Origin: Phosphitispora fastidiosa
Lineage (GTDB): Bacteria > Bacillota > Thermincolia > Thermincolales > UBA2595
Length of the DNA stretch: 64,000 bases
Direction of reading: 5' to 3'
Assembly (NCBI RefSeq): GCF_019008365.1
Contig: NZ_JAHHUL010000018.1
Location: 1 to 64,000 of the forward strand
The position numbers were made by a program, and so were the translations under genes. Of the stretch, positions 16,160 through 32,454 are shown one piece after another. A model generated the notes under the pieces. It searched no databases. It was not told the origin of the DNA and saw only the letters and a program-made list of their open reading frames with translations. Positions within the stretch are counted from its first letter, which is position 1, and each line of letters starts with the position of its first letter.

Positions 16160-17758
16160 ACCGTCAGACAGTTCATAGGGTTTGCAGAAACGAACGCGGG
16201 GGTTTTTTTCTGCCGCCCAGCGGAGGGCAAAATCATTTTCATAAAGTACCACAGTATCACCGTTGTGGTCCTTTACACAAGGGCTGGAACTGCTGTGGAG
16301 CTGACGGATGTCTTCCGGGTTATCACTTTTTACCCACCTGGCAATGTTGAAGCGGAGATGCTGCAGTAGAATATCGGCCCCGTATTCTGCTTTAAGCCGG
16401 TATTCAAAAACTTCAAACTGAAGTTTTCCTACCACTCCCAAAATGATGTCTTCCGTTCTGTCCCTGAAGGTCCGGAATATTTGGACAGCGCCTTCTTCAG
16501 CCAATTGGTTAATTCCTTTTTGGAATTGTTTATGTTTCATAGCATCCTTTACTGTTACCCTGGCAAAATGCTCGGGAGAGAAGCGGGGGAGCCGTTCGTA
16601 CTGAAATGATCCCTCTTCGCAAAGGGTGTCACCTATCTGGAAAATTCCCGGATCGAATATTCCAATGATGTCACCGGGATAGGCTTCATCTATAATATTC
16701 CGCCCCTGGGCTAGAAATTGCTGTGGCTGTGAAAGCCTTATTTTTTTGCCTGTTCTGACATGGTTTGCCATTATGCCGCGGCTAAACTTACCTGAACAAA
16801 TGCGGAGAAAGGCGATGCGGTCACGATGTGCCGGGTTCATGTTAGCCTGAATTTTAAAGACAAAACCGGAGAATGGCGTTTCCTCCGGGGCGACAAGACC
16901 GATGCTGCTTTTTCTGGGCGTTGGGGCCGGGGCAAGCTCCAGGAAGTCATCCAGAAAAGTCTGGACACCGAAATTAGTAATGGCGCTCCCGAAAAAAACA
17001 GGAGTTAGCTGCCCCTTTTGGATTTGCTGCCGGTCAAACGGATCTCCGGCGATGTCCAATAAGGAAATATGCTCATAGAGTTGGTGGTAAAGAGTTTCAT
17101 CGATTACGTTTTTGAGAGCAGGGTCTTCAATTCCTGCAGCACAGGGGACAAATTTCCTTACACTCCGTTCATTAAATAGTTCCAGCCTGTTTTTCTGCCT
17201 GTCGAAGATGCCGCGAAAATCTCTTCCCATACCAATAGGCCAGTTCATCGGACACGAACGCACACCAAGCACCTGCTCAATTTCCTCTAAGAGTTCCAGA
17301 GGGTCTTTGCCGTGCCGGTCCATTTTGTTTATGAAGGTGAAAATGGGGATAGACCTGATGCGGCATACTTCAAACAGTTTTATTGTTTGGGCTTCCACCC
17401 CTTTGGCTGCATCTATTAGCATAACTGCGCTGTCGGCGGCATTCAGGGTGCGGTAGGTATCCTCACTGAAGTCCTGGTGACCGGGAGTATCTAAAATATT
17501 TATTTTTAAACCTTGGTAAGAAAACTGCATGACACTGGAAGTAACCGAAATACCGCGCTGCTGTTCAATTTTCATCCAGTCGGAGGTTGCATGTTTTCCT
17601 GATTTTCTCCCTTTAACAGTACCGGCTAACCGGATGGCCCCGCCAAATAAAAGAAGTTTTTCGGTCAGGGTTGTTTTCCCGGCATCGGGGTGTGAGATGA
17701 TAGCAAAAGTACGTCTGGTGTTGACTTCTGAGGTAAGCTTATTTTTATGATTATGCAT
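16157..17758 (-). CDS. prfC: Peptide chain release factor 3
   Basis: A 533-residue translational GTPase with G1 SHPDAGKTT near residue 22, G2/G3 (RGISVTSSVMQF, DTPGHQDF) and G4 NKMD; the C-terminal half matches RF3 rather than EF-G (the usual length is about 530). RF3 releases RF1 and RF2 from the ribosome after termination. It stands alone and convergent to rnj. The ATG start is plausible, though the upstream Shine-Dalgarno is modest. Confidence 0.95.
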   Translation of the reverse strand: MHNHKNKLTSEVNTRRTFAIISHPDAGKTTLTEKLLLFGGAIRLAGTVKGRKSGKHATSDWMKIEQQRGISVTSSVMQFSYQGLKINILDTPGHQDFSEDTYRTLNAADSAVMLIDAAKGVEAQTIKLFEVCRIRSIPIFTFINKMDRHGKDPLELLEEIEQVLGVRSCPMNWPIGMGRDFRGIFDRQKNRLELFNERSVRKFVPCAAGIEDPALKNVIDETLYHQLYEHISLLDIAGDPFDRQQIQKGQLTPVFFGSAITNFGVQTFLDDFLELAPAPTPRKSSIGLVAPEETPFSGFVFKIQANMNPAHRDRIAFLRICSGKFSRGIMANHVRTGKKIRLSQPQQFLAQGRNIIDEAYPGDIIGIFDPGIFQIGDTLCEEGSFQYERLPRFSPEHFARVTVKDAMKHKQFQKGINQLAEEGAVQIFRTFRDRTEDIILGVVGKLQFEVFEYRLKAEYGADILLQHLRFNIARWVKSDNPEDIRQLHSSSSPCVKDHNGDTVVLYENDFALRWAAEKNPRVRFCKPYELSDG

Positions 17759-19970: not shown

Positions 19971-20062
19971 CGATATCAGGGAGGCCTACCGGGGAAACGC
20001 GTGCCCCATGTATTAAGTTAACCATTTAATAGAATTTGCAGAAAGATGGGAAGGTGATAGTT

Positions 20063-21013
20063 ATGTTTGAATTAATAGCTGATTATATCGTATACAACTT
20101 GTTTAATCTCCAGCAAAATACAAGGCTGGGTGACTCGGTTCATTTCTTTATATATGACTCCCTTAAGATTATTGTACTCCTGGCAGCTATGATTTTTGTG
20201 ATTTCATATATAAGGAGTTATTTTCCTCCGGAAAAAACCAAGAAGATCCTTGGTCATACCAACCGCCTGATAGGGAATATTATTGGGGCTGTGATGGGAG
20301 TTGTGACACCTTTTTGTTCATGCTCATCTGTTCCGATATTTATAGGCTTTGTTGAAACCGGGGTTCCGCTCGGAGTGACCTTTTCCTTTTTGATTGCATC
20401 TCCACTTGTTAATGAGATATCGGCAGCTATGCTGCTGGGACTGTTTGGGTGGAAAGTAACGCTTCTCTATATTGCCAGCGGCATGATTATAGCCATTGTG
20501 GGAGGCATTATAATCGGCAAACTCAAGCTTGAAAAGGAAGTTGAAGATTATGTCTATGAAATAAAGATGGGGCAGTCTGCGGAAATTGAAGAGCTTACCT
20601 GGAGAGACAGAGTTAAATTTGCCAAAGATAATGTTTCTGAAATAGTTAGAAAAATATGGGTTTATATTCTCATCGGAATTGGTGTCGGGGCGCTGATACA
20701 CGGCTATGCTCCGGAAGAATTCCTGGCCAAATATGCAGGTCCGGATAACCCGTTGGCTGTATTTGCAGCCGTAATAATTGGAATTCCCCTTTATTCCAAT
20801 GCTGTCGGGACTATTCCCATTGCCCAGGCGCTGATAGGAAAGGGGGTTGGGATAGGAACCGCCCTGGCTTTTATGATGGCTGTTACAGCATTGTCCTTGC
20901 CGGAAATGATAATATTAAGAAAAGTGCTAAAACCCAAACTAATTGCCATATTTATTTCAATCGTTGGCGCAGCAATAATATTTACCGGATATCTGTTCAA
21001 CCTGATACTCTAA
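20063..21013 (+). CDS. ArsP/YraQ-type permease (first copy)
   Basis: 316 residues from ATG 20063 (ribosome site GGGAAGGTGA). About eight membrane segments in two halves separated by a charged loop (residues about 155-195). The family motif TPFCSCSSVPIFIGF is near residue 85, with a second-half signature GIPLYSNAVGTIP. PF03773 (DUF318) includes ArsP, which exports methylarsenite, and many uncharacterised members. The conserved cysteines in the first-half motif fit a thiophilic substrate. It heads a tight set with a thioredoxin, CcdA and an ArsR remnant. An organoarsenical or other metalloid substrate is inference. Confidence 0.85.
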   Translation: MFELIADYIVYNLFNLQQNTRLGDSVHFFIYDSLKIIVLLAAMIFVISYIRSYFPPEKTKKILGHTNRLIGNIIGAVMGVVTPFCSCSSVPIFIGFVETGVPLGVTFSFLIASPLVNEISAAMLLGLFGWKVTLLYIASGMIIAIVGGIIIGKLKLEKEVEDYVYEIKMGQSAEIEELTWRDRVKFAKDNVSEIVRKIWVYILIGIGVGALIHGYAPEEFLAKYAGPDNPLAVFAAVIIGIPLYSNAVGTIPIAQALIGKGVGIGTALAFMMAVTALSLPEMIILRKVLKPKLIAIFISIVGAAIIFTGYLFNLIL

Positions 21014-21031
21014 AATATTGGAGGGGAAAAA

Positions 21032-21472
21032 TTGAAGATAAGAGCAGTTGTGTTAATATTGCTGGTAGCTGCATTAGCTGCCTTGCTGGCTGCCAAGGGG
21101 TTCAGGACAAATCCTGTCCCGGATGAGTATACCTCAAATGGGGCAGTTTCCCAGTCTGCAGACCTGATAAAACAGTCCATACAAGACGGTAAGCCTGCCT
21201 GGCTCCTGTTTCATTCAAAGACCTGCCAGCCTTGTATAGAGATGGAAAAAGTGTTTAACACACTAAAACCCGAATTTGAAGGAAAAGTGACTTTTGTTGA
21301 CATCAATGTAAATGACCCGGCTGAGCAGGAACTGTGTGCTCAGTATAAAATACAGTATATCCCCACCACATACCTTCTTGAGCCTGCCGGGAATATTGCG
21401 TTTGATTATGTCGGTGTGATACAGCTGGATGAAATGCGGGCCAAACTAAATGCCCTGGCGGGGGAGGGGTAA
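21032..21472 (+). CDS. Membrane-anchored thioredoxin-fold protein
   Basis: 146 residues with a TTG start behind GGAGGGG. One N-terminal membrane segment (about residues 4-22), then a thioredoxin fold with active site CQPC (FHSKTCQPCIEME) near residue 67 and the cis-proline loop YIPTTYLL. It probably faces the outside and exchanges electrons with the adjacent CcdA. It lies 18 nt after the permease and one nucleotide before ccdA, so it is in one operon. It may keep the permease or its substrate reduced. Confidence 0.85.
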   Translation: MKIRAVVLILLVAALAALLAAKGFRTNPVPDEYTSNGAVSQSADLIKQSIQDGKPAWLLFHSKTCQPCIEMEKVFNTLKPEFEGKVTFVDINVNDPAEQELCAQYKIQYIPTTYLLEPAGNIAFDYVGVIQLDEMRAKLNALAGEG

Positions 21473-21473
21473 A

Positions 21474-22163
21474 ATGGAAGATATCGTTACCAACTATCTC
21501 TCTCAGGCCCTGACAGGTTACTCTGTACTGGCAGTACTACTGGTTTTTGTCGGAGGGATAGTTACCAGCATAGGTCCGTGCAATATGTCTATGATCCCTG
21601 TCCTGATGGCCTATGTGGGCGGGACATCTGAGGTATCCAGGGCCAGAAGCTTTTGGTTATCATTCTTTTTCACCCTGGGAACATCAACTACTTTTGCTTT
21701 GCTGGGTGTGATTGCTTCAGTTATCGGCGGGTTTTTCGGTGTCTCCAAATCAGTTTTGGTTTATATTGCTGCTGTGGTGAGCATACTGGTAGGATTGAAA
21801 ATGTCAGGGGTAATAAATTTTAACCTGCCAAATTACGGAGCGCGAATTCTGCGCAGGCCGCAGCACAAGGGGATTTGGCCGGCATTCTTGATGGGACTTG
21901 TGATTGGCCTGGTCGGCTCCCAGTGTGCTACTCCCATACTGTTTGCCATCCTGTCTCTGGTGATGAGCAAAGGACAGATAGCATACGGGGCAGTGCTGCT
22001 GTTTATATACGGTCTCGGCAGGGGAGCGCCTGTGATAGCAGCAGGGACTTTTACCGGATTTGCTAAAGGACTTCCCGGTCTGACCCGATGGGCAGGAGTT
22101 TTTGAAAAAGCTGCGGGTGTGGTCTTAATAGTCATTGGGCTCTATTTTGCATGGACAGCATGA
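21474..22163 (+). CDS. ccdA: CcdA-type thiol-disulfide electron transporter
   Basis: 229 residues with six predicted membrane segments. The two cysteines of the CcdA redox pair are seen in SIGPCNMSMIPVL (near residue 32) and GSQCATPILF (near residue 150). CcdA carries electrons from cytoplasmic thioredoxin to extracytoplasmic thioredoxin-like proteins. Its ATG follows the upstream stop by one base (GGGGAGGGGTAAAATG). The partner here is probably the CQPC protein. A role in cytochrome c maturation cannot be excluded. Confidence 0.9.
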   Translation: MEDIVTNYLSQALTGYSVLAVLLVFVGGIVTSIGPCNMSMIPVLMAYVGGTSEVSRARSFWLSFFFTLGTSTTFALLGVIASVIGGFFGVSKSVLVYIAAVVSILVGLKMSGVINFNLPNYGARILRRPQHKGIWPAFLMGLVIGLVGSQCATPILFAILSLVMSKGQIAYGAVLLFIYGLGRGAPVIAAGTFTGFAKGLPGLTRWAGVFEKAAGVVLIVIGLYFAWTA

Positions 22164-22177
22164 AAAACGGGGAGGTA

Positions 22178-22424
22178 ATGGCCTTGGAAGAGAGGTTGTT
22201 TTCTATGGAAGCAGAATTTTTTAAGGCTTTGGCTCATCCGACCAGGGTGGGGATTTTGAAGCACCTGAAAGAAGGGCCTAAATGTGTCTGTGAATTTACT
22301 GAAATATAAGGTGAATTACCCGCAGATTTTTGAAATGCTTGACATGGTGGAGACAATTCTGATATCCCAGGTTCATGATACCCTGATGCTGCTTGATAAA
22401 CGGCGAAAAGAAGGAGGTGAGTAG
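22178..22424 (+). pseudogene. arsR-family repressor with internal deletion
   Basis: The N-terminus reads as an ArsR/SmtB repressor (FFKALAHPTRVGILKHLKEG, then CVCEF) and then meets a TAA at about 22306. A C-terminal helix from the same family continues in another frame (YPQIFEMLDMVETILISQVH). The DNA-recognition helix is deleted between the two. The operon has therefore lost its local repressor. Confidence 0.75.
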
Positions 22425-22428
22425 TCAA

Positions 22429-22680
22429 ATGGATATTAAAGTGCTTGGTTCAGGATGTGCTAACTGCAACAAACTGGAACAAATGGTATTTGATGTGCTG
22501 GCAGAGCTTAGCGCTGATGCAGATGTAAGCAAGGTAACAGATTTTAAGGACATAATGTCCTATGGGGTAATGTCAACCCCGGCGCTGGTTATCAATGAAC
22601 AGGTTGTGTTTTCGGGTGGAGTTCCCTCCAAGGCCAAACTGAATGAGATTATTGCAACAGAACTGGCCAAAAAGGGATAA
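22429..22680 (+). CDS. Small thioredoxin-fold protein (redox-active disulfide type)
   Basis: 83 residues from ATG 22429 with ribosome site AAGGAGGTGAG. Active site CANC (LGSGCANCNKLEQ) near residue 10 and a cis-proline loop (VMSTPALVINEQ) match the Thioredoxin_3 family. Such proteins are often encoded next to DUF318 permeases, as here, and may pass electrons or bind thiophilic metals. Cytoplasmic; no signal sequence. Confidence 0.88.
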   Translation: MDIKVLGSGCANCNKLEQMVFDVLAELSADADVSKVTDFKDIMSYGVMSTPALVINEQVVFSGGVPSKAKLNEIIATELAKKG

Positions 22681-22713
22681 CGCCGCTAACCGGTCAAAAT
22701 TATAATGTTTTAC

Positions 22714-22761
22714 GGCATAAAAGGTTTTGCAGCAGGTTAACTGGGCAAAACCTTTTATGCC
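22714..22761. repeat. Perfect 17-bp inverted repeat
   Basis: GGCATAAAAGGTTTTGC (22714-22730) and its exact complement (22745-22761) are separated by 14 nt. There is no T-run after it on the plus strand, so it is not a typical terminator. It lies between the thioredoxin gene and a truncated nifS and may mark a deletion point or an mRNA-stabilising hairpin. Confidence 0.7.
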
Positions 22762-22803
22762 AAAAACCCGTAGGATATTGTTGATGATGCGGAGGTTATA
22801 CCT

Positions 22804-22995
22804 ATGCCGATATATCTTGATAATGCGGCCACTTCTTTTCCCAAGCCGGAGGTTGTATACAGGGCTTCCGATGAATTTATGCGCAAGGTTGATGTTAACG
22901 CAGGGCGGGGAGCATACAGGCAGGCTCTGGAAGCTGGGGTCGGCTGCAGCTTTATGAAGGAGTTAAGGAACTGGCCGCGTATTTATTTGAAATAG
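22804..22995 (+). pseudogene. Cysteine desulfurase (NifS/SufS type) N-terminal fragment
   Basis: 63 codons. The first part is a clear class V aminotransferase N-terminus (IYLDNAATSFPKPEVVYRAS, then VNAGRGAYR). After about residue 48 the frame diverges and ends at TAG 22995. A full enzyme needs about 380 residues, so PLP-lysine and catalytic cysteine are missing. Confidence 0.75.
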
Positions 22996-23028
22996 GCAAA
23001 TATTATTTGGGAGGCTGAGCCAAATGGG

Positions 23029-23709
23029 GTGAATGGTTCATATGAAAAGGCCGGTGTAGAATTCATGAACAAGGGCCTGTTGAGGAAGCTAAGGGAAGCA
23101 GTTTTATCAGGTGAGCAGGAGCTGGCATTGAAGATTGCCGGAACGGCTTTGACAGAAGAAGTACCTGCCGAGGCCTTGGTTGAGCAGGGTTTATATCCGG
23201 CAGCATGCGAGTTAGCCCGAAGCTATGGAAATGACGAAACATGTATGGCAGAAATACTGGCAAAATTTGAATTAATTCAGTTGCTGCTTAACGAATTAAT
23301 TCCAAAACTGCGAGATGAAAGAAAAGGAGCAGAGCGAGGGCGATTATTGATCGGTTCCATACAGGGTAACCTGATAGACTTCGGTAAACTGATGCTGAAA
23401 ATTCTATTTATTGCATCTGGTTTTGGGGTAATTGACCTGGGGACAGATGTATCTCCTGAAACATTTGCTGAACATGTGCGTATGGAAAAACCTGATGTTC
23501 TTGCAATAGCCGTATATACAAAAGAATCTCTGCCCATGGCAGCAAAGACTGTCCAGCTTTTAAAGCAGGATTGTCTCAGGCAAGACCTTAAGATTATGCT
23601 GGGAGGCTGGGCGGTAACGCCTGAATTTGCAGCTGAGGCCGGTGCGGATATTTTTGCAGTAACGGCCGAGGAGGCAGTGGAACTTTGTTTGGCTGCCGTG
23701 GGGACTTGA
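23029..23709 (+). CDS. Corrinoid (B12-binding-like) protein with altered cobalamin motif
   Basis: 226 residues from GTG 23029; ATG 23068 is also possible. The N-terminal helical B12-binding cap (residues about 15-95) is followed by a Rossmann-type domain. The usual GDxHDIG cobalamin motif reads GSIQGNLIDFGKLM, so the Asp and the lower-ligand His are not conserved. Other family marks are kept (VIDLGTDVSPETFAEHV, MLGGWAVTPEFAAEAGAD). It may bind a corrinoid base-off without His ligation, or something else. It lies with DUF6951, SelW-like and ArsM genes and near an MtaA-type remnant, which suggests methyl-transfer chemistry. Confidence 0.8.
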   Translation: MNGSYEKAGVEFMNKGLLRKLREAVLSGEQELALKIAGTALTEEVPAEALVEQGLYPAACELARSYGNDETCMAEILAKFELIQLLLNELIPKLRDERKGAERGRLLIGSIQGNLIDFGKLMLKILFIASGFGVIDLGTDVSPETFAEHVRMEKPDVLAIAVYTKESLPMAAKTVQLLKQDCLRQDLKIMLGGWAVTPEFAAEAGADIFAVTAEEAVELCLAAVGT

Positions 23710-23755
23710 ATGGTACTGCATATACAGTCAGGACAAAACGGGGAGTGATTTAACT

Positions 23756-24088
23756 GTGAAAGTAAGTATTAATATTCAGGCAGGAATCTGTGGTTTTGAA
23801 ACTACTGTCACAGCATGTGGTTCCGGTGTGAAAGAGCCGACTTTAATTGAAATTGAAAGTAACTGTGAAAAGATTATTGCACTGGGTGAGTCTGTCAGGG
23901 AAGTCAGAGGACTGGACGAAATAACCCGGGGTTTTGATGGCGTAATTATGTCTGAGGCAAGAAATGTTCTTAGGGGATGCTGCGCCGGTTGTGTAGTTCC
24001 GGCAGGCATTTTTAAAGCAACACAGGTTGCGTCTGAGTTAGCCCTGCCTAAAGACATATTAATTTCAATGACCAAAGAGGAAGAATAA
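23756..24088 (+). CDS. DUF6951-like conserved protein
   Basis: 110 residues with a GTG start behind GGGGAG. It begins INIQAGICGFETTV and ends with a cysteine-rich CCAGCVVPAGIFKATQVASE segment and LPKDILISM. I recognise it as the small family often found beside corrinoid methyltransferase genes; no activity is established. Conserved Cys residues near positions 12, 80-85 suggest metal or cofactor binding. It sits 46 nt after the corrinoid protein. Confidence 0.65.
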   Translation: MKVSINIQAGICGFETTVTACGSGVKEPTLIEIESNCEKIIALGESVREVRGLDEITRGFDGVIMSEARNVLRGCCAGCVVPAGIFKATQVASELALPKDILISMTKEEE

Positions 24089-24094
24089 TGAGTT

Positions 24095-24208
24095 ATGAAT
24101 GCCAGTATTTGTCCTGTCTGCGGCCGGCAGGGCCAGAGCGTGCCGCTGACTGCCGTGGAGCAGGAAAGATGCAACTGCCAGTATGAAAATCCGGCAGGCA
24201 AGTGCTGA
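24095..24208 (+). CDS. Very small cysteine-rich protein
   Basis: 37 codons, starting 6 nt after the DUF6951 stop. It has a CPVCG motif near the N-terminus and CNC near residue 26, ending in GKC. The start resembles the zinc/Fe-S N-terminal domain of CopZ-like proteins (ICPVCGRQGQSVPLT) but is much shorter. It could be a truncated gene. A competing frame from ATG 24088 is less convincing. Confidence 0.45.
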   Translation: MNASICPVCGRQGQSVPLTAVEQERCNCQYENPAGKC

Positions 24209-24233
24209 AAATTTTATTGGAGGTGTAATTATA

Positions 24234-25055
24234 ATGTCTGTTGATATTAAAAAGAATTTAAACATTGAAATCACTTACTGTGTGGAATGAGGATTTCTTT
24301 CCAAGGCCTCCGGTCTGGCGGCCGCTATAGAGAAGGAGTTTGGTATCCCTGCGAAATTGAGGGAAGGTCATAACGGTATCTATGAAGTTTCTGTAAATGG
24401 CAATGTAATGTGTACAAATCAGAGTAAATGCAGCATGATTCCAAATGAAGAAGAGATTTTTCGGGTGCTCCGGCAGCTTGGCGTCCAAAAGAAAGAAGCT
24501 GCACAGGAGGTTGCTGAGAGCCCCGGAAGACAGGTGAACATTGAATTTATGTATCTTGACCTGAGTGTCTGTAACTGGTGTCAGTCAACGGAATCTAACC
24601 TTGATGAAGCCATAGCGGAAGTGGCCCGGGTTTTAAAGGCCACCGGTGTTGATGTGAATGTCAGGAAAATACATGTGCAATCAGAAGAACAGGCCCGTGA
24701 ACTGGGATTTGTAAGTTCGCCGACAATCCGCATAAATGGACAGGATATTCAGTTGGATGTCAAAGAAGCCTTATGTGATTCTTGCGGTGATCTGTGCGGG
24801 GACAGTGTTGACTGCCGGATTTGGACATATCAGGGCAAGGAATATACTGCTCCGCCAAAAGGCATGATAATTGACGCTGTCTTAAGGGAAGTTTACGGTG
24901 GTACAAAAGAGAGTACGAAAAAGCCAGCCAAAACAGGCGAGATACCGGAGAATTTGAAAAAGTTTTTTGCAGCCAAACGCCGGAAACAGGATATTGAAAT
25001 AATCAAAGTAACAGATAGTTGTTGCAGTCCGACTACAGGCGAAAAGTGTACCTGA
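24234..25055 (+). CDS. Selenoprotein: Rdx/SelW-like domain fused to DUF2703
   Basis: 273 residues if the in-frame TGA at 24288-24290 is read as Sec19. The start ATG has ribosome site GGAGGTG. Residues 8-85 match Rdx selenoproteins, with the redox motif CVEU (ITYCVEUGFLSKASGLAAAI) where most bacterial relatives have CxxC, and the domain continues without a break after the TGA (FGIPAKLREGHNGIYEVSVN). Residues about 100-222 are a DUF2703 domain with CNWC and CDSCGDLC clusters, related to the separate protein at 31538. The tail ends SCCSPTTGEKC. A hairpin with a GGTCT loop starts 14 nt after the TGA. It lies just before a MarR-arsM set; a thiol-redox role in metalloid metabolism is inferred. Confidence 0.85.
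24305..24323 (+). promoter_or_regulatory. Bacterial SECIS element candidate (SelW-DUF2703)
   Basis: GGCCTCC-GGTCT-GGCGGCC forms a 7-bp stem with one mismatch and a GGTCT loop starting 21 nt after the TGA. The loop is the same as in the fdhA SECIS, the sequence read by SelB in studied bacteria. Confidence 0.75.
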
Positions 25056-25067
25056 AGTTAGACGATT

Positions 25068-25092
25068 ACCCGCAGTTTGCGGGTTTTCTTTA
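25068..25092 (+). terminator. Terminator after SelW-DUF2703 gene
   Basis: ACCCGCA-gtt-TGCGGGT (25068-25084) followed by a T-rich run TTTTCTTT. Confidence 0.85.
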
Positions 25093-25122
25093 TGTTATGA
25101 TCTGATTAAGTTAAACAAAAAC

Positions 25123-25151
25123 TTGCAAATTGCAATAAATAATCATATAAT
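25123..25151 (+). promoter_or_regulatory. Sigma-A-type promoter with palindromic operator for MarR gene
   Basis: TTGCAA (25123-25128) and TATAAT (25146-25151) are exactly 17 nt apart. The -35 box lies in an inverted repeat TTGCA-aat-TGCAA (25123-25135), a likely site for the MarR protein encoded from 25168. Confidence 0.7.
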
Positions 25152-25167
25152 TAGCTCAGGGGGTGAA

Positions 25168-25620
25168 ATGAAGTTGGAAAACGTCCACGAGTTGATCCGG
25201 ATTTTAGTCCAAAGGTTTGGATTGCTGAACGCAAGTTGTTGTGAGAACTGTTTCGGGGAAGGAGTTTCACTGGTTCAAAGCTATATCCTGTTTGAGATTA
25301 GGAGGGAAGAAAATCCTGCGATGTATCAGGTCGCGGAAGCTCTGGGGATAGATATCACGACATTTAGCCGGCAAATTAAATCCTTAGAAAATAAATGCCT
25401 GGTTACAAAATCGCCCGATCCCGATGACCGGCGGATTAATATACTGGCGCTTACCTCTGAAGGCAAAAGGATAACAGACCAGATCGATATGCGCATGAAT
25501 AGTTATCTTGAGCAGCTTTTTTCCTGTTTCACAGAGTTTGAACGAGAGGTAGTGATTAAATCAATGAAACTGTTAAATAAAGCTTTATTCAAATCGGAAA
25601 TGTGTTGCGATATAAAATAA
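25168..25620 (+). CDS. MarR-family regulator, cysteine-rich (first copy)
   Basis: 150 residues from ATG 25168 (ribosome site GGGGGTG). A winged helix typical of MarR is clear (AMYQVAEALGIDITTFSRQI, then SPDPDDRRINILALT). Unusual cysteines occur at CCENC near residue 25 and at a C-terminal CC, suggesting thiol-based sensing of arsenite or similar ions. It lies 64 nt upstream of arsM with its own promoter and palindrome, so it likely controls arsM and itself. Confidence 0.85.
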   Translation: MKLENVHELIRILVQRFGLLNASCCENCFGEGVSLVQSYILFEIRREENPAMYQVAEALGIDITTFSRQIKSLENKCLVTKSPDPDDRRINILALTSEGKRITDQIDMRMNSYLEQLFSCFTEFEREVVIKSMKLLNKALFKSEMCCDIK

Positions 25621-25684
25621 TTATCCAGTAGGATATTTGCAAAAAACAAGTAAAAGCCAAATAATTGCATGAGGAGGTAACAAT

Positions 25685-26488
25685 ATGAATCCAGACAAAA
25701 CAGCTGAAGTTGTCAGGGCAGCCTATGGGTCCATTGCCAACCAGCAAAGCGGTTGTGGCTGTGGCGGTTCTTGCGGGGATGACGCAGGGGAATTTGCCAA
25801 ATCTCTTGGGTATTCTGACAGTGATCTTAGCGTTATACCTACGGAAGCCAATTTGGCGTTAAGCTGTGGGAATCCCACCGCGATTGCCGGCCTAAAGGAA
25901 GGTGAAACAGTTCTTGATCTCGGTTCCGGAGCAGGTTTCGATTGTTTTCTGGCAGCAGCTAAAGTTGGTCAGTCAGGCAGAGTCATCGGTGTTGACATGA
26001 CACCGGAGATGATTGGAAGGGCAAGGGACATAGCCTCAAAAGACCACAATGCCAATGTTGAATTTAGGCTTGGTGAAATTGAAAATTTGCCTTTAGCAGA
26101 TAATTCGGTTGATGTAGTGATAAGTAACTGTGTTATTAATCTATCTGCCAATAAGGCCAGGGTTTTTCAGGAAATATACAGGGTGCTTAAGCCTCACGGA
26201 AGGGTGGCCATATCTGATATTGCTCTGCTAAAAGAGCTTCCTGAAAAAACCCGGATTAGCATGGAAGCTTATGTGGGTTGTGTTGCCGGTGCAATGCTGA
26301 TTGATAAGTACAAAGAGGTGGTTGAAGCATCCGGATTAAAGGATGTGAAAGTGACCGTTAAAGGTTCTTCGATTTGCCTGGATCCGGATACCAAAGACCC
26401 GATAGGGAGGGCTATGCTGGACAGCCTGGAAGAAGGCCAGTCACTCCAGGACTATGTTGTCAGCGCTTATATTGAGGCAACAAAGTAA
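25685..26488 (+). CDS. arsM: Arsenite S-adenosylmethionine methyltransferase
   Basis: 267 residues, ATG behind GAGGAGG. SAM-binding motif VLDLGSGAGFDCFLAA near residue 75. The three cysteines conserved in ArsM are visible in LSCGNP, SNCVINL and VGCVAGA, with an extra N-terminal CGCGGSCG cluster. ArsM adds methyl groups to arsenite, giving mono- to trimethylated arsenicals. The length fits (about 265-280). It lies between two MarR genes and near two ArsP-type permeases that could export methylated products. Confidence 0.95.
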   Translation: MNPDKTAEVVRAAYGSIANQQSGCGCGGSCGDDAGEFAKSLGYSDSDLSVIPTEANLALSCGNPTAIAGLKEGETVLDLGSGAGFDCFLAAAKVGQSGRVIGVDMTPEMIGRARDIASKDHNANVEFRLGEIENLPLADNSVDVVISNCVINLSANKARVFQEIYRVLKPHGRVAISDIALLKELPEKTRISMEAYVGCVAGAMLIDKYKEVVEASGLKDVKVTVKGSSICLDPDTKDPIGRAMLDSLEEGQSLQDYVVSAYIEATK

Positions 26489-26503
26489 AAGGGAGAAACT
26501 AAA

Positions 26504-26566
26504 ATGACCATTATTGGCATTGCCCTTATTTATTTTTACAGGAAGAAAGGCCCTAAAAAAGGTTGA
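26504..26566 (+). CDS. Possible 20-residue peptide or gene relic
   Basis: ATG 26504 follows a ribosome site (AAAGGGAG) 15 nt after arsM and encodes a short hydrophobic then basic peptide (MTIIGIALIYFYRKKGPKKG). Its end overlaps the -35 box of the next promoter. It may be the truncated start of a lost membrane protein. Confidence 0.3.
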   Translation: MTIIGIALIYFYRKKGPKKG

Positions 26567-26609
26567 CGTCAGCAACTAATAAAAGTATAATTTAGTTGAT
26601 GGGGTCAAC
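26563..26609 (+). promoter_or_regulatory. Promoter and palindromic operator of second MarR gene
   Basis: TTGACG (26563-26568) and TATAAT (26586-26591) are 17 nt apart. A palindrome GTTGA-tgggg-TCAAC (26595-26609) covers the expected start of transcription. This places the first base near 26597, so translation most likely starts at GTG 26635 and not at the upstream TTG 26596 or ATG 26599. Confidence 0.8.
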
Positions 26610-26634
26610 CAAATTAGAAAGGAAGAGCTCTAGA

Positions 26635-27060
26635 GTGGATAAAAACATTTCGGCAATCTATAATTCGCTGCAGGAGGTAGCATGGTATTTCGGAAACAAA
26701 GGATTTGACGGGGAATGCTGCGGGGACCTTTCTTTAGTTGAATTTATGACATTAAAAAAAACGTTCCTTAATAAAAATTTTTCAATACAGGACATAGGAA
26801 ATGCATTGAATTTTACGAAAAGCGGAGCTACCAGAATTGTTGACCGCTTGGTAAGTAAGGGATACCTCACACGTGAACGTTCTTCCGTTGATGGGCGGGT
26901 TTGCTGTGTTTCAGTTACGGAAAAAGGAACAGAAATGATAAATGAGACCATGGGAAAAAATACTGCCCAGCTTCAAGAAAGGTTGAAAGACCTTGAACCA
27001 CAGGTAGTGGATGTTATTAAAGATGCATTGGAAACTTTATTAACAGCAATAGAGCGGTAA
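26635..27060 (+). CDS. MarR-family regulator (second copy)
   Basis: 141 residues from GTG 26635 (ribosome site GGAAGAG). A winged helix (FSIQDIGNALNFTKSGATRI, then RERSSVDGRVCCVSVT) follows an N-terminal helix with ECCGDLSLVEFM. The cysteine pair near residue 26 and the one in the wing could sense thiophilic ions. It is not a close copy of the first MarR protein. It is followed by the second permease, 45 nt on, so it likely controls that gene and itself through the palindrome at 26595. Confidence 0.85.
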   Translation: MDKNISAIYNSLQEVAWYFGNKGFDGECCGDLSLVEFMTLKKTFLNKNFSIQDIGNALNFTKSGATRIVDRLVSKGYLTRERSSVDGRVCCVSVTEKGTEMINETMGKNTAQLQERLKDLEPQVVDVIKDALETLLTAIER

Positions 27061-27105
27061 GAGCTCAGATAGTCTAAAATTTTGCATCTAACTGGGGGGG
27101 TATAT

Positions 27106-27999
27106 GTGAATTCACTTACAAGCACAATAAAATATTTTATTGTCATAACTGCGGAGCTTACGGTATTGTTTCTGGGAATCAGCACGATTGTGGCATTAAT
27201 CCTTATGTATATATCTCAGGAGAAAATTAAAAACTGGATGTCAGGTAAGGGTATATGGGGTAATTTTATTGGAGCATTTATCGGGGCCTTGACACCTTTC
27301 TGTGCTTGTTCCACTATTCCGCTGACTCTTGGTTTTTTGGAAGCCGGAGTCACATTTGGCGCTGTGATATCATTTGTGATTGCTTCGCCCTTATTGAATC
27401 CTATAATACTGACCATGCTGGTGGCCTTGATGGGCTGGAAGGCAAGCGTAATCTATTTTATTATTGTGTTTGGCGGGACTGTTATTTTTGGAGTAATCCT
27501 GGAAAAAGCAGGTGGGTCCAAGCTTGTTAAGGGAGTCCGAATAAAAGGAGGTGAGCAGAAAGATAATGAAGAAATGCCCAAGGCTTTTAAATCCAAATTG
27601 AGGCTGTCTTTTATTAAAGCCTGGGGAGACTTCAGGGGTGTCTTAATTTATCTGCTGGTCGGTGTCGGTATTGGGTCAATTATTTACGGCTATCTGCCGC
27701 AGGATTTTGTATTAAAAATTGCCGGTCCGGATAATCCTTTTACCATCCCAATTGCAGCGCTAATAGGCATTCCCCTGTATATTCGTGCAGAAACGGCGAT
27801 ACCAATCGGAGTAGCCTTAATGCAAAAAGGTATGAGCATTGGAGCTGTAATCGCTCTAATTATTGGCGGGGCAGGTATGGCAATTCCCGAAATGAGTATG
27901 TTAGCAGGTATATTTAAGAAAAAATTGGTAGCAGCTATTATTATGGCGATTTTTCTTACAGCTGTTATTGGCGGATATATTTTCAATATGATTTTATAG
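27106..27999 (+). CDS. ArsP/YraQ-type permease (second copy)
   Basis: 297 residues from GTG 27106 behind GGGGGG. Same two-half fold as the first permease, with motif TPFCACSTIPLTLGF near residue 65 and a GIPLYIRAETAIPIG signature in the second half. The central loop is charged. Family PF03773 contains the organoarsenical exporter ArsP. Its place right after a MarR gene and arsM supports export of methylated arsenic species; this is inference. The two copies differ widely in sequence, so they may serve different substrates. Confidence 0.85.
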   Translation: MNSLTSTIKYFIVITAELTVLFLGISTIVALILMYISQEKIKNWMSGKGIWGNFIGAFIGALTPFCACSTIPLTLGFLEAGVTFGAVISFVIASPLLNPIILTMLVALMGWKASVIYFIIVFGGTVIFGVILEKAGGSKLVKGVRIKGGEQKDNEEMPKAFKSKLRLSFIKAWGDFRGVLIYLLVGVGIGSIIYGYLPQDFVLKIAGPDNPFTIPIAALIGIPLYIRAETAIPIGVALMQKGMSIGAVIALIIGGAGMAIPEMSMLAGIFKKKLVAAIIMAIFLTAVIGGYIFNMIL

Positions 28000-28052
28000 G
28001 CAATACGTGAAAATGATTTCAAAAATTAATATGAAACATGAAAGGGGGAAAC

Positions 28053-28217
28053 ATGTTAATGAATAACGAAAATAAGAAGAAGGGATTATTTGAAAGCCTT
28101 TTTGGCAGCAAGAAAGATAAAAAAGGATCATGCTGCGGCAGTTTCCAGATAGAAGAATTGCCGGAAGAGAATACCGAAAAGAAAGATTCTGAGGCTTCCT
28201 TAAAGAAGCAGATTTGA
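28053..28217 (+). CDS. Small charged protein with CCGS motif
   Basis: 54 residues from ATG 28053 (ATG 28059 possible), ribosome site AAAGGGGG. Lysine-rich start (KKKGLFESLFGSKKDKKG), then SCCGSFQIEEL and an acidic tail. The vicinal cysteines could bind arsenite or another soft ion. It follows the second permease and precedes a terminator. I do not know a function for it. Confidence 0.6.
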   Translation: MLMNNENKKKGLFESLFGSKKDKKGSCCGSFQIEELPEENTEKKDSEASLKKQI

Positions 28218-28272
28218 GACAGAGCTTCAGGATGCATTGGACAGATTTAGAATTTAAAAAGTATTTTGAGTG

Positions 28273-28314
28273 GATACAGGCATCACATTTGCTGTGAAGC
28301 TTGTATCTTTTTTT
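28273..28314 (+). terminator. Terminator after permease operon
   Basis: A 15-nt arm (28273-28287, GATACAGGCATCACA) pairs with 28293-28307 with two mismatches, followed by seven T residues. Confidence 0.85.
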
Positions 28315-28387
28315 GCCAGTTTTTAGATATAACTATTCCTGATAGGGGTATAATTTAATCCTATTACCCGAATTAGTATGTGCATGT

Positions 28388-28565
28388 TATAATTAGCACA
28401 AGCGGTAGTGTAAATTATTTCCAAAAATAGTGAGAATTAAATCAATTCTGACAACTTGGAGTTGTAATAATTAATTTGTCTCCATAAGGCAGTGCTTTGG
28501 TATCCAAAAAAACATATTTTAAAAGGAGAGGTGGGTTAGCAACAAGGCAAAACTCAAGCACTGCC
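28388..28565 (+). ncRNA. Candidate structured leader RNA upstream of rhodanese gene
   Basis: A weak promoter (TTACCC 28364-28369, TATAAT 28388-28393, 18-nt spacing) would give a leader of about 210 nt. In it, GGCAGTGCTT (28488-28497) pairs perfectly with AAGCACTGCC (28556-28565), enclosing a purine-rich segment (GGAGAGGTGGGTTAGCAACA). No T-run follows, so control of translation is more likely than termination. I compared it in mind with SAM, TPP, cobalamin, c-di-GMP, Moco and fluoride riboswitches and could not match it to any of them. Confidence 0.4.
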
Positions 28566-28616
28566 GGCTGATGCCATAAGCAATTATAAAACACAAACGA
28601 AAGGGGAAATTATCAG

Positions 28617-29723
28617 ATGCATTATTTATCAAAAAGAACAGTATTTTTAAGCCTTATGATGATACTTCTTCTAGTTGCAGCCGGGTGCAGTTCTTCCGGT
28701 GTCGCCCAGAATAACGTACCTGCTGCCAGTGAAACGGAAACTTCAGTTGCTGCAGCAGCTCTAAAACTCCATCCGGCAAGCCCGGAAACAGTAGCTACCA
28801 GTACTGAATCATTGGGAGCTTTTTCCCTTGATGAAATCGGCCCGTCTGACATTGTAGATGTTGCTTTTGTTGAATCCAAGGTTAAAGATTCCGGATGGGT
28901 AATAATTGACGCCCGTTCTGCTGAGGATTATGCCAAGGGACATATCCCGGGAGCTGTTAACTTTGGCGGCAAAGGTCTCGTTACTGTTCTCAAGCACCCA
29001 ATGGATGGCCGTGTCCTGCCTGCCGAAAAATTTGCCAAGTTAATGAGTGAAATGGGAATCAGCAATGACATGGACTTGATTGTCTATGGAAAAGCCAATG
29101 ATTATCATGTATTTATCGAAGGCTCTCCGCTTTATTACGGGGCAAAATCATTCCACTACATGAACGGTGGTTACGAGGCATGGCAGAAAGCAGGCCAGTC
29201 AGTTGAAACGGATCCCGTGAAACTGTCACCGGCTACTTTTACTGCCAAGTCTGTTAACCCCAATATGTATGTTTCCACATATCAAATGGCTGAAATCGCT
29301 TCAACAAAGGATCCCAATTACTACCTCATCGATGTTCGCAGTAAGGATGAGTATAATGGTATCGGCTTTGGCACTACCCGTGCCGGAAGGATTCCGGGAG
29401 GAATCTCCTATCCGGTAGATATTAACATGGATAAAGAAGCCGGAGTACTTGCAGTTGATAAATTTGCAGAACTTTATAAGGATGTTCCTAAAGACAAGAC
29501 AGTTATTGTTTATTGCCACCGCGGCTGCCGGACCGCCTTCTCCTTCCTTGCTCTCCGCAGCTTAGGTTATAAGGACGTCCGGGTTTATGAAGATTCCTTT
29601 GTAGTTTATGGCAACTGGCTTGATTTGCCTGTAGAAGAAGAGCATTTCCTTAACCTGCGCGGTGATTTTAAGACAACGGTTGAGAGGGCCGAAATCCTAT
29701 GGAAAGAAGCAGGTAAAAGCTAA
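28617..29723 (+). CDS. Rhodanese-like sulfurtransferase lipoprotein
   Basis: 368 residues with a lipoprotein signal (LLLVAAGC, lipid Cys near residue 24). Two rhodanese domains follow. The first (WVIIDARSAEDYAKGHIPGA) has no cysteine in its active loop (VYGKANDYHVF). The second (YYLIDVRSKDEYNGIGFGTT) has active loop YCHRGCR, so only it should transfer sulfur. Thiosulfate or another sulfane-sulfur donor is the usual substrate. Exported and membrane-anchored. It lies 58 nt upstream of the selenocytochrome gene, so the two probably work together outside the membrane. Confidence 0.88.
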   Translation: MHYLSKRTVFLSLMMILLLVAAGCSSSGVAQNNVPAASETETSVAAAALKLHPASPETVATSTESLGAFSLDEIGPSDIVDVAFVESKVKDSGWVIIDARSAEDYAKGHIPGAVNFGGKGLVTVLKHPMDGRVLPAEKFAKLMSEMGISNDMDLIVYGKANDYHVFIEGSPLYYGAKSFHYMNGGYEAWQKAGQSVETDPVKLSPATFTAKSVNPNMYVSTYQMAEIASTKDPNYYLIDVRSKDEYNGIGFGTTRAGRIPGGISYPVDINMDKEAGVLAVDKFAELYKDVPKDKTVIVYCHRGCRTAFSFLALRSLGYKDVRVYEDSFVVYGNWLDLPVEEEHFLNLRGDFKTTVERAEILWKEAGKS

Positions 29724-29781
29724 ATAATTACATCCTTTTTTAAAAAGGTGTCTTTTAAGTTATTGGGGAAGGAGATTAGTA

Positions 29782-30645
29782 GTGATTAAAGAAAAAAATA
29801 ATCTGGAAGAGGGAAAAAACTCCCTGCTGAGCAGGAGAAAATTTCTGATAGGCGCAGGAGCTTTGGCGACATCCGGTGTACTGGCTGCCACAGGTCTGGT
29901 GGGATGCGGGGCGAAGGAAAAGCCCGCTGGGACTTCAGCTGAACCGGGTGCAACCCCATTATCTTCCGGTGGTAAAGTACCATGGAAATATCAAAAGTTG
30001 GATGTTGAGCTGGTAAGGAAAAGAGGATATGAAGCTTATTTTAAGTATGGCTGAGGTTATGGAGCCGCAGAAGCGTTGCTTCTGACTCTGAGAGAATCAT
30101 CCGGGGGGCCGTGGGATAATATTCCAATTGAAATGTTCATATACGGCGCTGGTGGAGCATATTCATGGGGTACTTTATGCGGAGCTTTAAATACCAGTAT
30201 GGCCATTATGTGCCTTGCTTCAGAAAAACATGCCGAAATAGGCAATGATTTAATCGGATGGTACACCGAGTTTCCATTCCCGTCCGACAAAATGGATGCT
30301 TATTCCCATTTTCCCAAACAGCATCAGACAATATCCAAATCACCTCTGTGCCACGTATCTGTAAGCACGTGGGCCAATGCTGCTGACTCCATTCAAAGGA
30401 TTAATGAAAAGGCAAAGAAAGATCGCTGTGCCAAGGTTACCGGTGATACGGCTGCCAGGGCAGCAGAACTCCTGAACCAGGCTCTTGGCGGCAAGGTTGT
30501 TCCTCTGTACAAGGTTCCTGAGGAATTTAATCACTGTATGCAGTGTCACCAGGGAGAGAAGAGTACTTTGGATAACCAACAGGGGAAAATGAACTGTAAT
30601 CTGTGTCATGATGTCGCTGACGATCATCCGGCGAAGACGCAGTAA
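29782..30645 (+). CDS. Selenoprotein: split-Soret-type dihaem cytochrome c, Tat lipoprotein
   Basis: 287 residues if TGA 30052-30054 is Sec91; GTG start. The signal carries a twin-arginine motif (SRRKFLIGAGALA) and a lipobox LVGC. The region around the TGA (RGYEAYFKYGUGYGAAEALL) matches the C_GCAxxG_C_C/split-Soret cytochrome family, where a Cys stands at the TGA position. The frame continues through WGTLCGALNTSMA to two haem sites, CMQCH and CNLCH, near the C-terminus. Neither half makes sense alone: the first ends before the haem sites and the second has no ribosome site. Split-Soret cytochrome is known from sulfate reducers; its role is unclear. Confidence 0.85.
30068..30084 (+). promoter_or_regulatory. 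SECIS-like hairpin (selenocytochrome)
   Basis: CAGAAGC-gtt-GCTTCTG is a perfect 7-bp stem with a 3-nt loop starting 20 nt after the TGA, in the position expected for a bacterial SECIS element. Confidence 0.6.
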
Positions 30646-30679
30646 TCTTTTTAAAAAACAATTATAAATATAATGAGCT

Positions 30680-30723
30680 GAAACACAGCCGGACCCTTTC
30701 TTATAGCGGTTCGGCTGTGTTTC
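30680..30723 (+). terminator. Terminator after selenocytochrome gene
   Basis: GAAACACAGCCGGACC pairs with GGTTCGGCTGTGTTTC (30680-30695/30708-30723) with one G-T pair. The T-run is short, but the stem is long. Confidence 0.7.
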
Positions 30724-30901
30724 CTAATAGACATCTCAGGGGTGTTTGCTGCTCTAATCGTGATAGGGATTATAGGAATCATGTAGGTACGCTAAAGAAA
30801 TTCTTGAATTGTATGATTCCCTGGAGGAGGAGATTGACAGCCTTCAGCAGAATAAAATGCAATAGGTGTTATTTTTTATATATATATAGAAGGTGATATA
30901 T

Positions 30902-31468
30902 TTGAATACGGAAGAATTATGGGCCATCTATAGTTCCAGCCTGAAGACCTATATAATGAAACATATACCGGATAAATATGAAGCAGAAGATATACTTCAG
31001 GAAGTCGGCATTCGAATGCAAAAAAATGCAAACAGAATTAAAGATATAACCAATGTTGAGGCCTGGTTGTACCGGATAGCCCATAATTTAATAGTGGACT
31101 ATTTCAGAGGAGCAAACAAGCATTTACTGACAGACCATATCAATGAAATACCCGTTCCAGCCGCAACTGAGCAGGAGAACTATAACAAAGAGGCGGCGGA
31201 GTGCTTGCTAAAACTTCTTGAATATCTTCCTGACACATATAAAGAAGCCATTATTGAAAGTGATTATAATGGTAAGAAGCAAAGCCTGTTAGGTCAAAAA
31301 TGGGGATTAAGCAATTCCGGAAGCAAAACCAGAATCCAGCGGGCACGGAAAAAATTAAAAAAAGTGCTGCTTAGTTGCTGTGAAGTCAAATCAGATAACG
31401 CAGGGAATATAATAGATTTTTATAATAAAGAAAATGATGGAACTGAATTTTCGTGTATAAAGTGTTAG
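30902..31468 (+). CDS. SigZ-like RNA polymerase sigma factor
   Basis: 188 residues from TTG 30902 (ribosome site AGAAGGTGA). Region 2 is clear (AEDILQEVGIRMQKN, VEAWLYRIAHNLIVDYFRG), and region 4 has YLPDTYKEAIIESDYNGKKQ. The C-terminal tail is longer than in ECF sigmas and has a CC pair and a final C-IKC, hinting at thiol or metal sensing. No anti-sigma gene is adjacent. It lies 69 nt before the DUF2703 gene and may drive it and other genes in the island. Confidence 0.85.
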   Translation: MNTEELWAIYSSSLKTYIMKHIPDKYEAEDILQEVGIRMQKNANRIKDITNVEAWLYRIAHNLIVDYFRGANKHLLTDHINEIPVPAATEQENYNKEAAECLLKLLEYLPDTYKEAIIESDYNGKKQSLLGQKWGLSNSGSKTRIQRARKKLKKVLLSCCEVKSDNAGNIIDFYNKENDGTEFSCIKC

Positions 31469-31537
31469 AATAAATGCGTCCTTTTGTTGATGCCTCCGTC
31501 TTTATTTATGAAAACACTATTACAGGGAGGTATTTAA

Positions 31538-31975
31538 ATGAAAAAACTTATAATTGAATGGAAACATCTTGATGTTGAAGGGGAGACCTGCAACCGTTGT
31601 TATGATACGGGTGAAAATCTTAATCAGGAAGTAAAAAGATTAAACAGAGCGTTGCAACCACAGGGCATCGAGGTAGAATGGTTTGAGACCAAACTCGATG
31701 ATACCCAGATTCCTCAATCAAATACTATCTTATTCAATGGAGTTCCTATTGAAGACATCTTGGATATTAAGGTATCAGAGAACTTCTGTGAGTCCTGTAC
31801 TGCTTTACTGGGAAATGAAACTTACTGTCGAACCATTACATATGAAGGCTGCGAGTATGAAGACATACCTGCCAAGGCCATCCGGCAGGCGGCATTTAAG
31901 GTATTAGGCATAGAAGAAGCGAAAAGGGTGCCGATGGCAAATTCCGGCTGTTGTAATAACAGCGGCTGCTGCTAA
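31538..31975 (+). CDS. DUF2703 protein
   Basis: 145 residues, ATG behind GGGAGG. It matches the C-terminal half of the selenoprotein at 24234: both have an IEW/IEF strand, a CNRC/CNWC motif near residue 20, a CESC/CDSCGDLC cluster, and TYCRTITYEGCEYEDIP-like sequence. The tail NSGCCNNSGCC adds two cysteine pairs. The fold is probably thioredoxin-like; no activity is known. Its pairing with a sigma factor and its cysteine tail fit a metalloid-binding or thiol-redox role. Confidence 0.8.
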   Translation: MKKLIIEWKHLDVEGETCNRCYDTGENLNQEVKRLNRALQPQGIEVEWFETKLDDTQIPQSNTILFNGVPIEDILDIKVSENFCESCTALLGNETYCRTITYEGCEYEDIPAKAIRQAAFKVLGIEEAKRVPMANSGCCNNSGCC

Positions 31976-32045: not shown

Positions 32046-32252
32046 GTGGAACAGGTGAATTTTGAGACGGCGGGTTTTGAATGTGCCCTGATACCTTTTG
32101 ACATCTGTGTTGAAGCTGAGTTGATGGGGTGTAAAATAAAGTATTTTCGCAATAGCAACGAATCAATATATCCGAATATAAAGAAACGTTTAATTATAGA
32201 ACCAAACGAAATCGAAGGAGTGGAGGCTCCTGATGAGGTTATGGGGAGATGA
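32046..32252 (+). pseudogene. MtaA-type (URO-D family) methyltransferase fragment
   Basis: About 65 codons resemble an inner part of methylcobamide methyltransferases of the uroporphyrinogen decarboxylase family (AGFECALIPFDICVEAELMG, then VEAPDEV). The rest of the roughly 340-residue enzyme, including the zinc site, is gone. The fragment runs directly into an arsR fragment. It suggests that a methyl-transfer partner for the corrinoid protein once existed here. Confidence 0.55.
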
Positions 32253-32454
32253 GGTCAGGTTAAAGATACTGCAAATGCTGACAGAACGTGAAATGTGTGT
32301 CTGTGAAATAATTGACTGGCTGGACATGTCCCAGCCGGTAGTTTCCCATCACCTGAAAATTCTCAGGCAGGCCGGGCTGGTGAAAGACTGCCGGGACGGG
32401 AAGTGGATATATTACTCCTTAAATGAAAACCCGGGGAGGTTGTTACTGTTCTAA
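32233..32454 (+). pseudogene. arsR-family repressor fragment
   Basis: The DNA-binding part of an ArsR repressor is intact (DEVRLKILQMLTEREMCVCE, then SQPVVSHHLKILRQAGLV, and DGKWIYYSL). The N-terminal helix is replaced by the end of the methyltransferase fragment and the C-terminal end is replaced by a permease fragment. A short 73-residue product from ATG 32233 is conceivable, but the lost N-terminal helix should weaken dimerisation. Confidence 0.6.

Follow-up and report, generated by a model that had tools for sequence, protein, structure and literature searches.

A predicted Rdx-DUF2703 fusion selenoprotein is encoded in an arsenic island of an anaerobic Thermincola-type bacterium

The window, i.e., the complete stretch of 64,000 nucleotides that was analyzed, originates from an anaerobic Thermincola-type bacterium and harbors an arsenic island. 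The original prediction had placed the gene under study in such an island. While the arsenic context held, the island turned out to be larger than proposed, with an extent of about 20036-31975. It opens with the genes for an ArsP permease, a thioredoxin and CcdA. The gene for the fusion protein is the fourth in a run encoding a Trx_3-like protein, a corrinoid protein, DUF6951, the fusion protein, MarR, ArsM, MarR and ArsP. The predicted identity of the corrinoid-binding protein, DUF6951, MarR and ArsM neighbors was confirmed by domain and profile matches. The relevant features are:

20036-21013, + strand: ArsP_1 permease (PF03773, E 6e-85)
21032-22163, + strand: thioredoxin and CcdA/DsbD-type membrane protein
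22393-22680, + strand: MTH895/ArsE family thioredoxin-like protein (redox-active disulfide protein 2; TIGR00412, above cutoff)
23065-23709, + strand: corrinoid-binding protein, MtgC-like
23756-24088, + strand: DUF6951 protein (PF22263, E 1.3e-20)
24219-24223, + strand: Shine-Dalgarno sequence GGAGG upstream of the fusion start, seen in the sequence
24234-25055, + strand: gene for the predicted Rdx-DUF2703 fusion selenoprotein of 273 residues, Sec19 included (this codon is TGA in six genomes and CGA in one)
24261-24473, + strand: Rdx/SelW-like domain, residues 10-80 (PF10262, E 4.5e-8)
24288-24290, + strand: in-frame TGA, predicted Sec19 of C16-V-E-U19 (TGA conserved in genomes G011, G161, G131, G186 and G328; CGA in G147)
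24305-24323, + strand: SECIS-like hairpin GGCCTCC-GGTCT-GGCGGCC (loop GGTCT, 24312-24316)
24537-24878, + strand: DUF2703 thioredoxin-like domain, residues 102-215 (PF10865, E 3.1e-37; thioredoxin-fold matches)
24570-24581, + strand: CxxC (C113, C116), shared by all 45 relatives
24774-24815, + strand: second cysteine cluster CDSCGDLCGDSVDC (C181, C184, C188, C194; C181, C184 and C194 invariant, C188 in 38 of 45)
25123-25620, + strand: MarR-family regulator with a cysteine-rich N-terminal part
25685-26488, + strand: arsenite methyltransferase ArsM (NF008823, 323.7 bits, cutoff 263)
27082-27999, + strand: second ArsP_1 permease
31538-31975, + strand: stand-alone DUF2703 paralog, preceded by the gene for a SigZ-like ECF sigma factor (30893-31468)

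Gene remnants are found at 22171-22330, 22790-22900 and 32046-32450. The corresponding genes are intact in the related loci L047, L048 and L049, where they encode two ArsR proteins, a methyltransferase of the MtaA/CmuA (URO-D) type and a cysteine desulfurase-like protein. The island has thus been rearranged and is eroding. The neighboring gene for the MtaA/CmuA-type methyltransferase, a remnant in the window, is complete in G011. In the genome to which the window belongs, acr3 lies elsewhere, outside the fusion island. A second candidate selenoprotein is encoded at 29782-30645, a split-Soret cytochrome c / C_GCAxxG_C_C protein (PF09719; NF047622, E 1.4e-43, below the cutoff of that model). Its in-frame TGA at 30052 is followed after about 22 nt by the hairpin CAGAAGC-GTT-GCTTCTG, and in G011 (L047:7280-8143) this codon is likewise a stop.

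The fusion gene is a single reading frame (24234-25052) with an ATG start at 24234, a TGA interruption at 24288 and a terminal TGA stop at 25053-25055. The encoded protein begins with MSVDIKKNLNIEITYCVEUGFLSKASGL... As had been predicted, the first TGA, codon 19, lies in the CxxU motif (CVEU) of a SelW-like domain, and the frame runs on beyond it. Both parts of the proposed fusion, Rdx and DUF2703, exceed the Pfam gathering scores. For Rdx, the PF10262 score is 33.6 bits (gathering score 22.6), while TIGR02174 remains just below its cutoff (28.6 vs 34.2). The Rdx profile matches SelW-family chains, e.g., 2ljk and 2fa8. In a predicted model of the fusion protein (pLDDT 87, pTM 0.60, such that the placement of the domains relative to each other is unreliable), the N-terminus adopts a SelW fold, for which Foldseek returned 2fa8, 2obk, 2p0g and 3dex with TMt values of about 0.8. 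SelW-like CxxU proteins have been predicted as bacterial selenoproteins before (PMC2398784, PMC9312934, PMC13188914), and the domain (Rdx, PF10262), the CxxU motif and the position of selenocysteine are common to these and the fusion protein. However, the described SelW-like selenoproteins consist of a single domain, whereas the present one is joined to DUF2703 and located in ars loci.

Relatives were sought in 398 genomes sampled from the phylum. The fusion with one in-frame TGA at the same codon is present in five of the nine genomes covered from the family (the genome studied here, G011, G161, G131 and G186) and in G328, which belongs to another family and class. The same phylum sample contains 20 stand-alone Rdx homologs, 19 of which also have TGA at this position while the remaining one has Cys. 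In the seventh fusion genome, G147, the gene (L051:9209-10159) carries CGA (Arg) at the Sec position, so that the ORF is not interrupted. Fusion homologs with Cys at residue 19, which were to be expected, did not emerge among the relatives, which have Sec and once Arg, nor does any relative found use the TGA as a real stop. In principle, the TGA at 24288 could genuinely end translation or reflect an error in the sequence, with DUF2703 starting internally, and an ORF from TTG 24357 does exist. However, the TGA is shared by six genomes from two classes, the N-terminal protein sequence is conserved, and alternative starts preceded by a ribosome-binding site are not consistently present. Furthermore, both domains form one unbroken chain in G147, and this speaks against a separate downstream gene. 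We therefore regard a true stop or a sequence error as extremely improbable. Purifying selection acts on the coding sequence before as well as after the TGA, and dN/dS in the latter part is about 0.2 where estimable.

The hairpin with a GGTCT loop starts exactly 14 nt past the TGA, in full agreement with the original prediction, and has one internal U.C mismatch; the stems in G161 and G328 are unbroken. Taken alone, the folding energy of the window's hairpin is ordinary compared with shuffled sequences (z about 0). The energy summed over the hairpins, on the other hand, was matched by only 3 of 1000 resamplings of synonymous codons in which the protein was kept. At three of the seven stem pairs, both partners have changed, and pairing amounts to 86% as opposed to 33-60% for slid versions, while the shuffle control for pairing is weaker (50-74 of 500, with six sequences only). 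For selenocysteine insertion in bacteria, the loop is located about 16-37 nt past the UGA and carries a G among its first two bases. The fusion hairpins comply with this rule, as in each of the five distinct Sec sequences the loop lies 21-22 nt past the UGA and has a G among the first two bases. The genome studied here contains selA, selB, the gene for tRNA-Sec and two selD genes, one of which lies beside selA, and SelB is encoded in all seven fusion genomes. Each of the two selD genes (L163 and L164, on contigs C20 and C26) has an in-frame TGA itself. Hence neither of the two observations named in advance as refuting the original prediction was made, i.e., homologs in which the TGA acts as a stop and the downstream part starts on its own, or a genome devoid of the sel genes. 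Taken together, we strongly infer from the sequences that UGA codon 19 is read as selenocysteine.

G147 deserves a separate comment. The arginine in place of Sec means that either Sec is not indispensable everywhere or the G147 copy is damaged; this genome is 7% contaminated. The arginine codon is likely the result of a recent loss of Sec by one transition, with SelB and the hairpin still present. Retention of the hairpin despite the loss of the TGA is expected of such a recent event.

Searching a genome collection with the fusion protein returned the fusion in Thermincola-like genomes only, and no additional fusions were found in the classes of G147 and G328. Plasmid and phage collections contained no fusion but two plasmid matches to DUF2703 alone, and the two relatives on viral contigs were likewise DUF2703-only. 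In a tree of the DUF2703 domain, the fusions fall within one supported group of 16 that includes unfused members. Judged from these sequences, the fusion could have either a single origin followed by losses or several origins.

The C-terminal domain has been encountered in an arsenic context before. A DUF2703 protein is encoded within the ars cluster of Rhodococcus aetherivorans BCP1 and is arsenate-induced there (PMC6514093). It shares the domain, the CxxC motif and the ars context with the protein studied here but, in the part of that report concerned with it, appears without Rdx and without Sec. DUF2703 has been assigned to the thioredoxin-like proteins in PMC3091736, where the passages on this domain mention fusions of ArsD with DUF2703 and not of Rdx with DUF2703. 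In line with this assignment, the DUF2703 profile aligned with MTH895/ArsE-type thioredoxin at the CxxC motif and the cis-Pro (E 1.4e-5), and a separate model of the domain matched thioredoxins weakly (E about 4e-3 at best). The fusion protein in its full length is not represented by any NCBIfam model. One model, NF049942 (DF family (seleno)protein), reached 62.9 bits with a cutoff of 70, covers DUF2703 residues 122-215 and probably represents the 'hypothetical protein DF' of deep-Sep (PMC12013277). This family is named for a Sec in its own domain, whereas the DUF2703 part of the fusion protein has Cys, and its predicted Sec is located in Rdx.

To assess the linkage with arsenic genes, homologs of Acr3, ArsP, ArsA, ArsD, ArsM or ArsC were counted within 6 kb. 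Such neighbors occur at six of seven fusion loci and at 21 of 36 stand-alone DUF2703 loci, compared with none of 20 arbitrary 14-kb control regions taken from 20 of the same genomes (Fisher p about 7e-7). In G161, the island is the same as that in the window. At the loci of G131, G186, G147 and G328, arsR-acr3, arsD-arsA and/or an ArsP-type gene reside beside the fusion: it adjoins ArsR-Acr3-ArsD-ArsA in G131, ArsR-Acr3 in G186, Acr3 and ArsR in G328, and ArsR with ArsD-ArsA in G147. The exception is G011, which has no specific ars gene within 6 kb, the downstream ars genes being missing. This exception, the generic redox character of SelW proteins and the general nature of the island's CcdA and thioredoxin genes would fit a protein for general thiol or metal stress that resides in the ars island by chance of position. 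We consider this very unlikely, as the linkage recurs in three classes and is absent from the controls, and as stand-alone Rdx genes are devoid of arsenic-specific neighbors (none within 1.5-kb flanks at the 20 loci of the phylum sample, with one weak MarR-type match). A special role had originally also been seen for the corrinoid protein and DUF6951. Such a role found no support: both accompany the fusion in the closest genomes only (they occur together in G161, and in G011 DUF6951 alone was detected) and are absent at the loci of G131, G186, G147 and G328. Like the MtaA/CmuA-type methyltransferase, also limited to close relatives, they need not share the function of the fusion protein.

These findings suggest that the arsenic defence of the bacterium uses selenium. 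The originally proposed 'undescribed selenium-dependent step' in metalloid or thiol metabolism is plausible. With reasonable though far from complete confidence, we propose that the fusion protein acts as a selenocysteine-containing, intramolecular redox relay in arsenic detoxification that reduces arsenic species or arsenic-blocked thiols. The SelW-like N-terminal domain would supply the selenol/thiol pair of CxxU, and DUF2703 would contribute the thioredoxin-like CxxC, the second conserved cysteine cluster and cysteine-rich ends. The action of the Rdx selenol is probably coupled to that of DUF2703, with electrons presumably passing within the molecule between the CxxU of the former and the CxxC of the latter, and either domain may be the one that receives electrons. 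Arsenate, a methylarsenical or arsenic-blocked thiols are the putative substrates, and the resulting trivalent arsenic would be methylated or exported by the neighboring ArsM, ArsP and Acr3 proteins. Points that speak against this reading are the arginine of G147, the ordinary folding energy of the window's hairpin when taken alone, the missing ars neighbors in G011 and the location of acr3 outside the island in the genome studied here.

Two other functions in arsenic metabolism have to be weighed against a redox relay. The first is that of a chaperone, in which Sec and the many cysteines bind As(III) and hand it to Acr3, ArsP or ArsM, much like ArsD delivers to ArsA. This fits the conserved cysteine cluster outside the active site, the CC motifs at the C-terminal end of many of the 45 DUF2703 relatives, and the vicinity of acr3 or arsDA at fusion loci. 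However, similarity to ArsD was lacking (hhalign E 0.14, with an ArsD profile of five sequences only), DUF2703 has the CxxC and cis-Pro of a redox thioredoxin, and ArsD is itself present at some fusion loci, such that the fusion protein is no replacement for it. We hold a chaperone to be rather unlikely.

The second is a replacement of ArsC in strict anaerobes by the fusion protein itself, with arsenate or methylarsenate being reduced jointly by the selenol of Rdx and the dithiol of DUF2703. The arsC gene does not occur within 6 kb of any fusion locus, compared with 8 of 36 stand-alone DUF2703 loci, and with curated cutoffs a Trx-type ArsC is encoded in only one of the seven fusion genomes (G131) and a Grx-type ArsC in none. 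As ArsC is thus absent from the fusion loci and, with these cutoffs, from six of seven fusion genomes, the fusion protein may replace it. If so, it would be a selenium-dependent arsenic reductase, and arsenic tolerance would depend on the selenium supply. On the other hand, G131 has both proteins, so that replacement is not general, and G186 has an ArsC-like protein below cutoff (132 bits). In addition, anaerobes may mainly meet As(III), in which case a missing ArsC proves little, and the counts do not suffice for significance. The fusion protein gave no ArsC match in domain scans. A substitute for ArsC therefore appears distinctly unlikely, and the redox relay remains our preferred reading.

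Both halves of the protein were known, SelW-like CxxU selenoproteins on the one hand and thioredoxin-like DUF2703 of ars clusters on the other, and it is their fusion that is new. In keeping with the original prediction, the Rdx-DUF2703 architecture was not found in the searched literature, although recent selenoprotein papers may mention it. It may also be under-reported, since ordinary gene callers likely end such genes prematurely at the TGA. The domain fusion, which is conserved across several genera of anaerobes, ties selenocysteine directly to arsenic-resistance operons. It also provides DUF2703, a family that is widespread in ars operons and has no known function, with testable partner chemistry. 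Selenoproteins beside metalloid genes are likewise found in SAO (Sec-assisted organometallic) operons and as ArsM selenoprotein fusions, as stated in PMC13188914 with reference to Haft and co-workers. Unlike the latter, ArsM of the window carries no fused seleno domain. When membership in SAO was assessed, the permeases scored 132 bits against the SaoE cutoff of 325, and the thioredoxin 18.8 against the SaoT cutoff of 65. The system presented in section 3.9 of PMC2963123 has three redox genes that are also present in the window's island, but no Sec fusion is described for it in that section.

Two further arrangements of DUF2703 were noted. The SigZ-like ECF sigma factor encoded directly upstream of the stand-alone paralog in the window has a cysteine-rich tail, and sigma factor and DUF2703 genes occur together at 15 of 43 DUF2703 loci, which suggests an arsenic- or thiol-responsive sigma unit. 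At L050:15161-15979, DUF2703 is joined to an N-terminal domain of another, unidentified kind (PQIYKLNVGGQVIGLTRVDEAF...), and a short protein encoded nearby (17365-17607) has an N-terminus resembling that of this other DUF2703 fusion.
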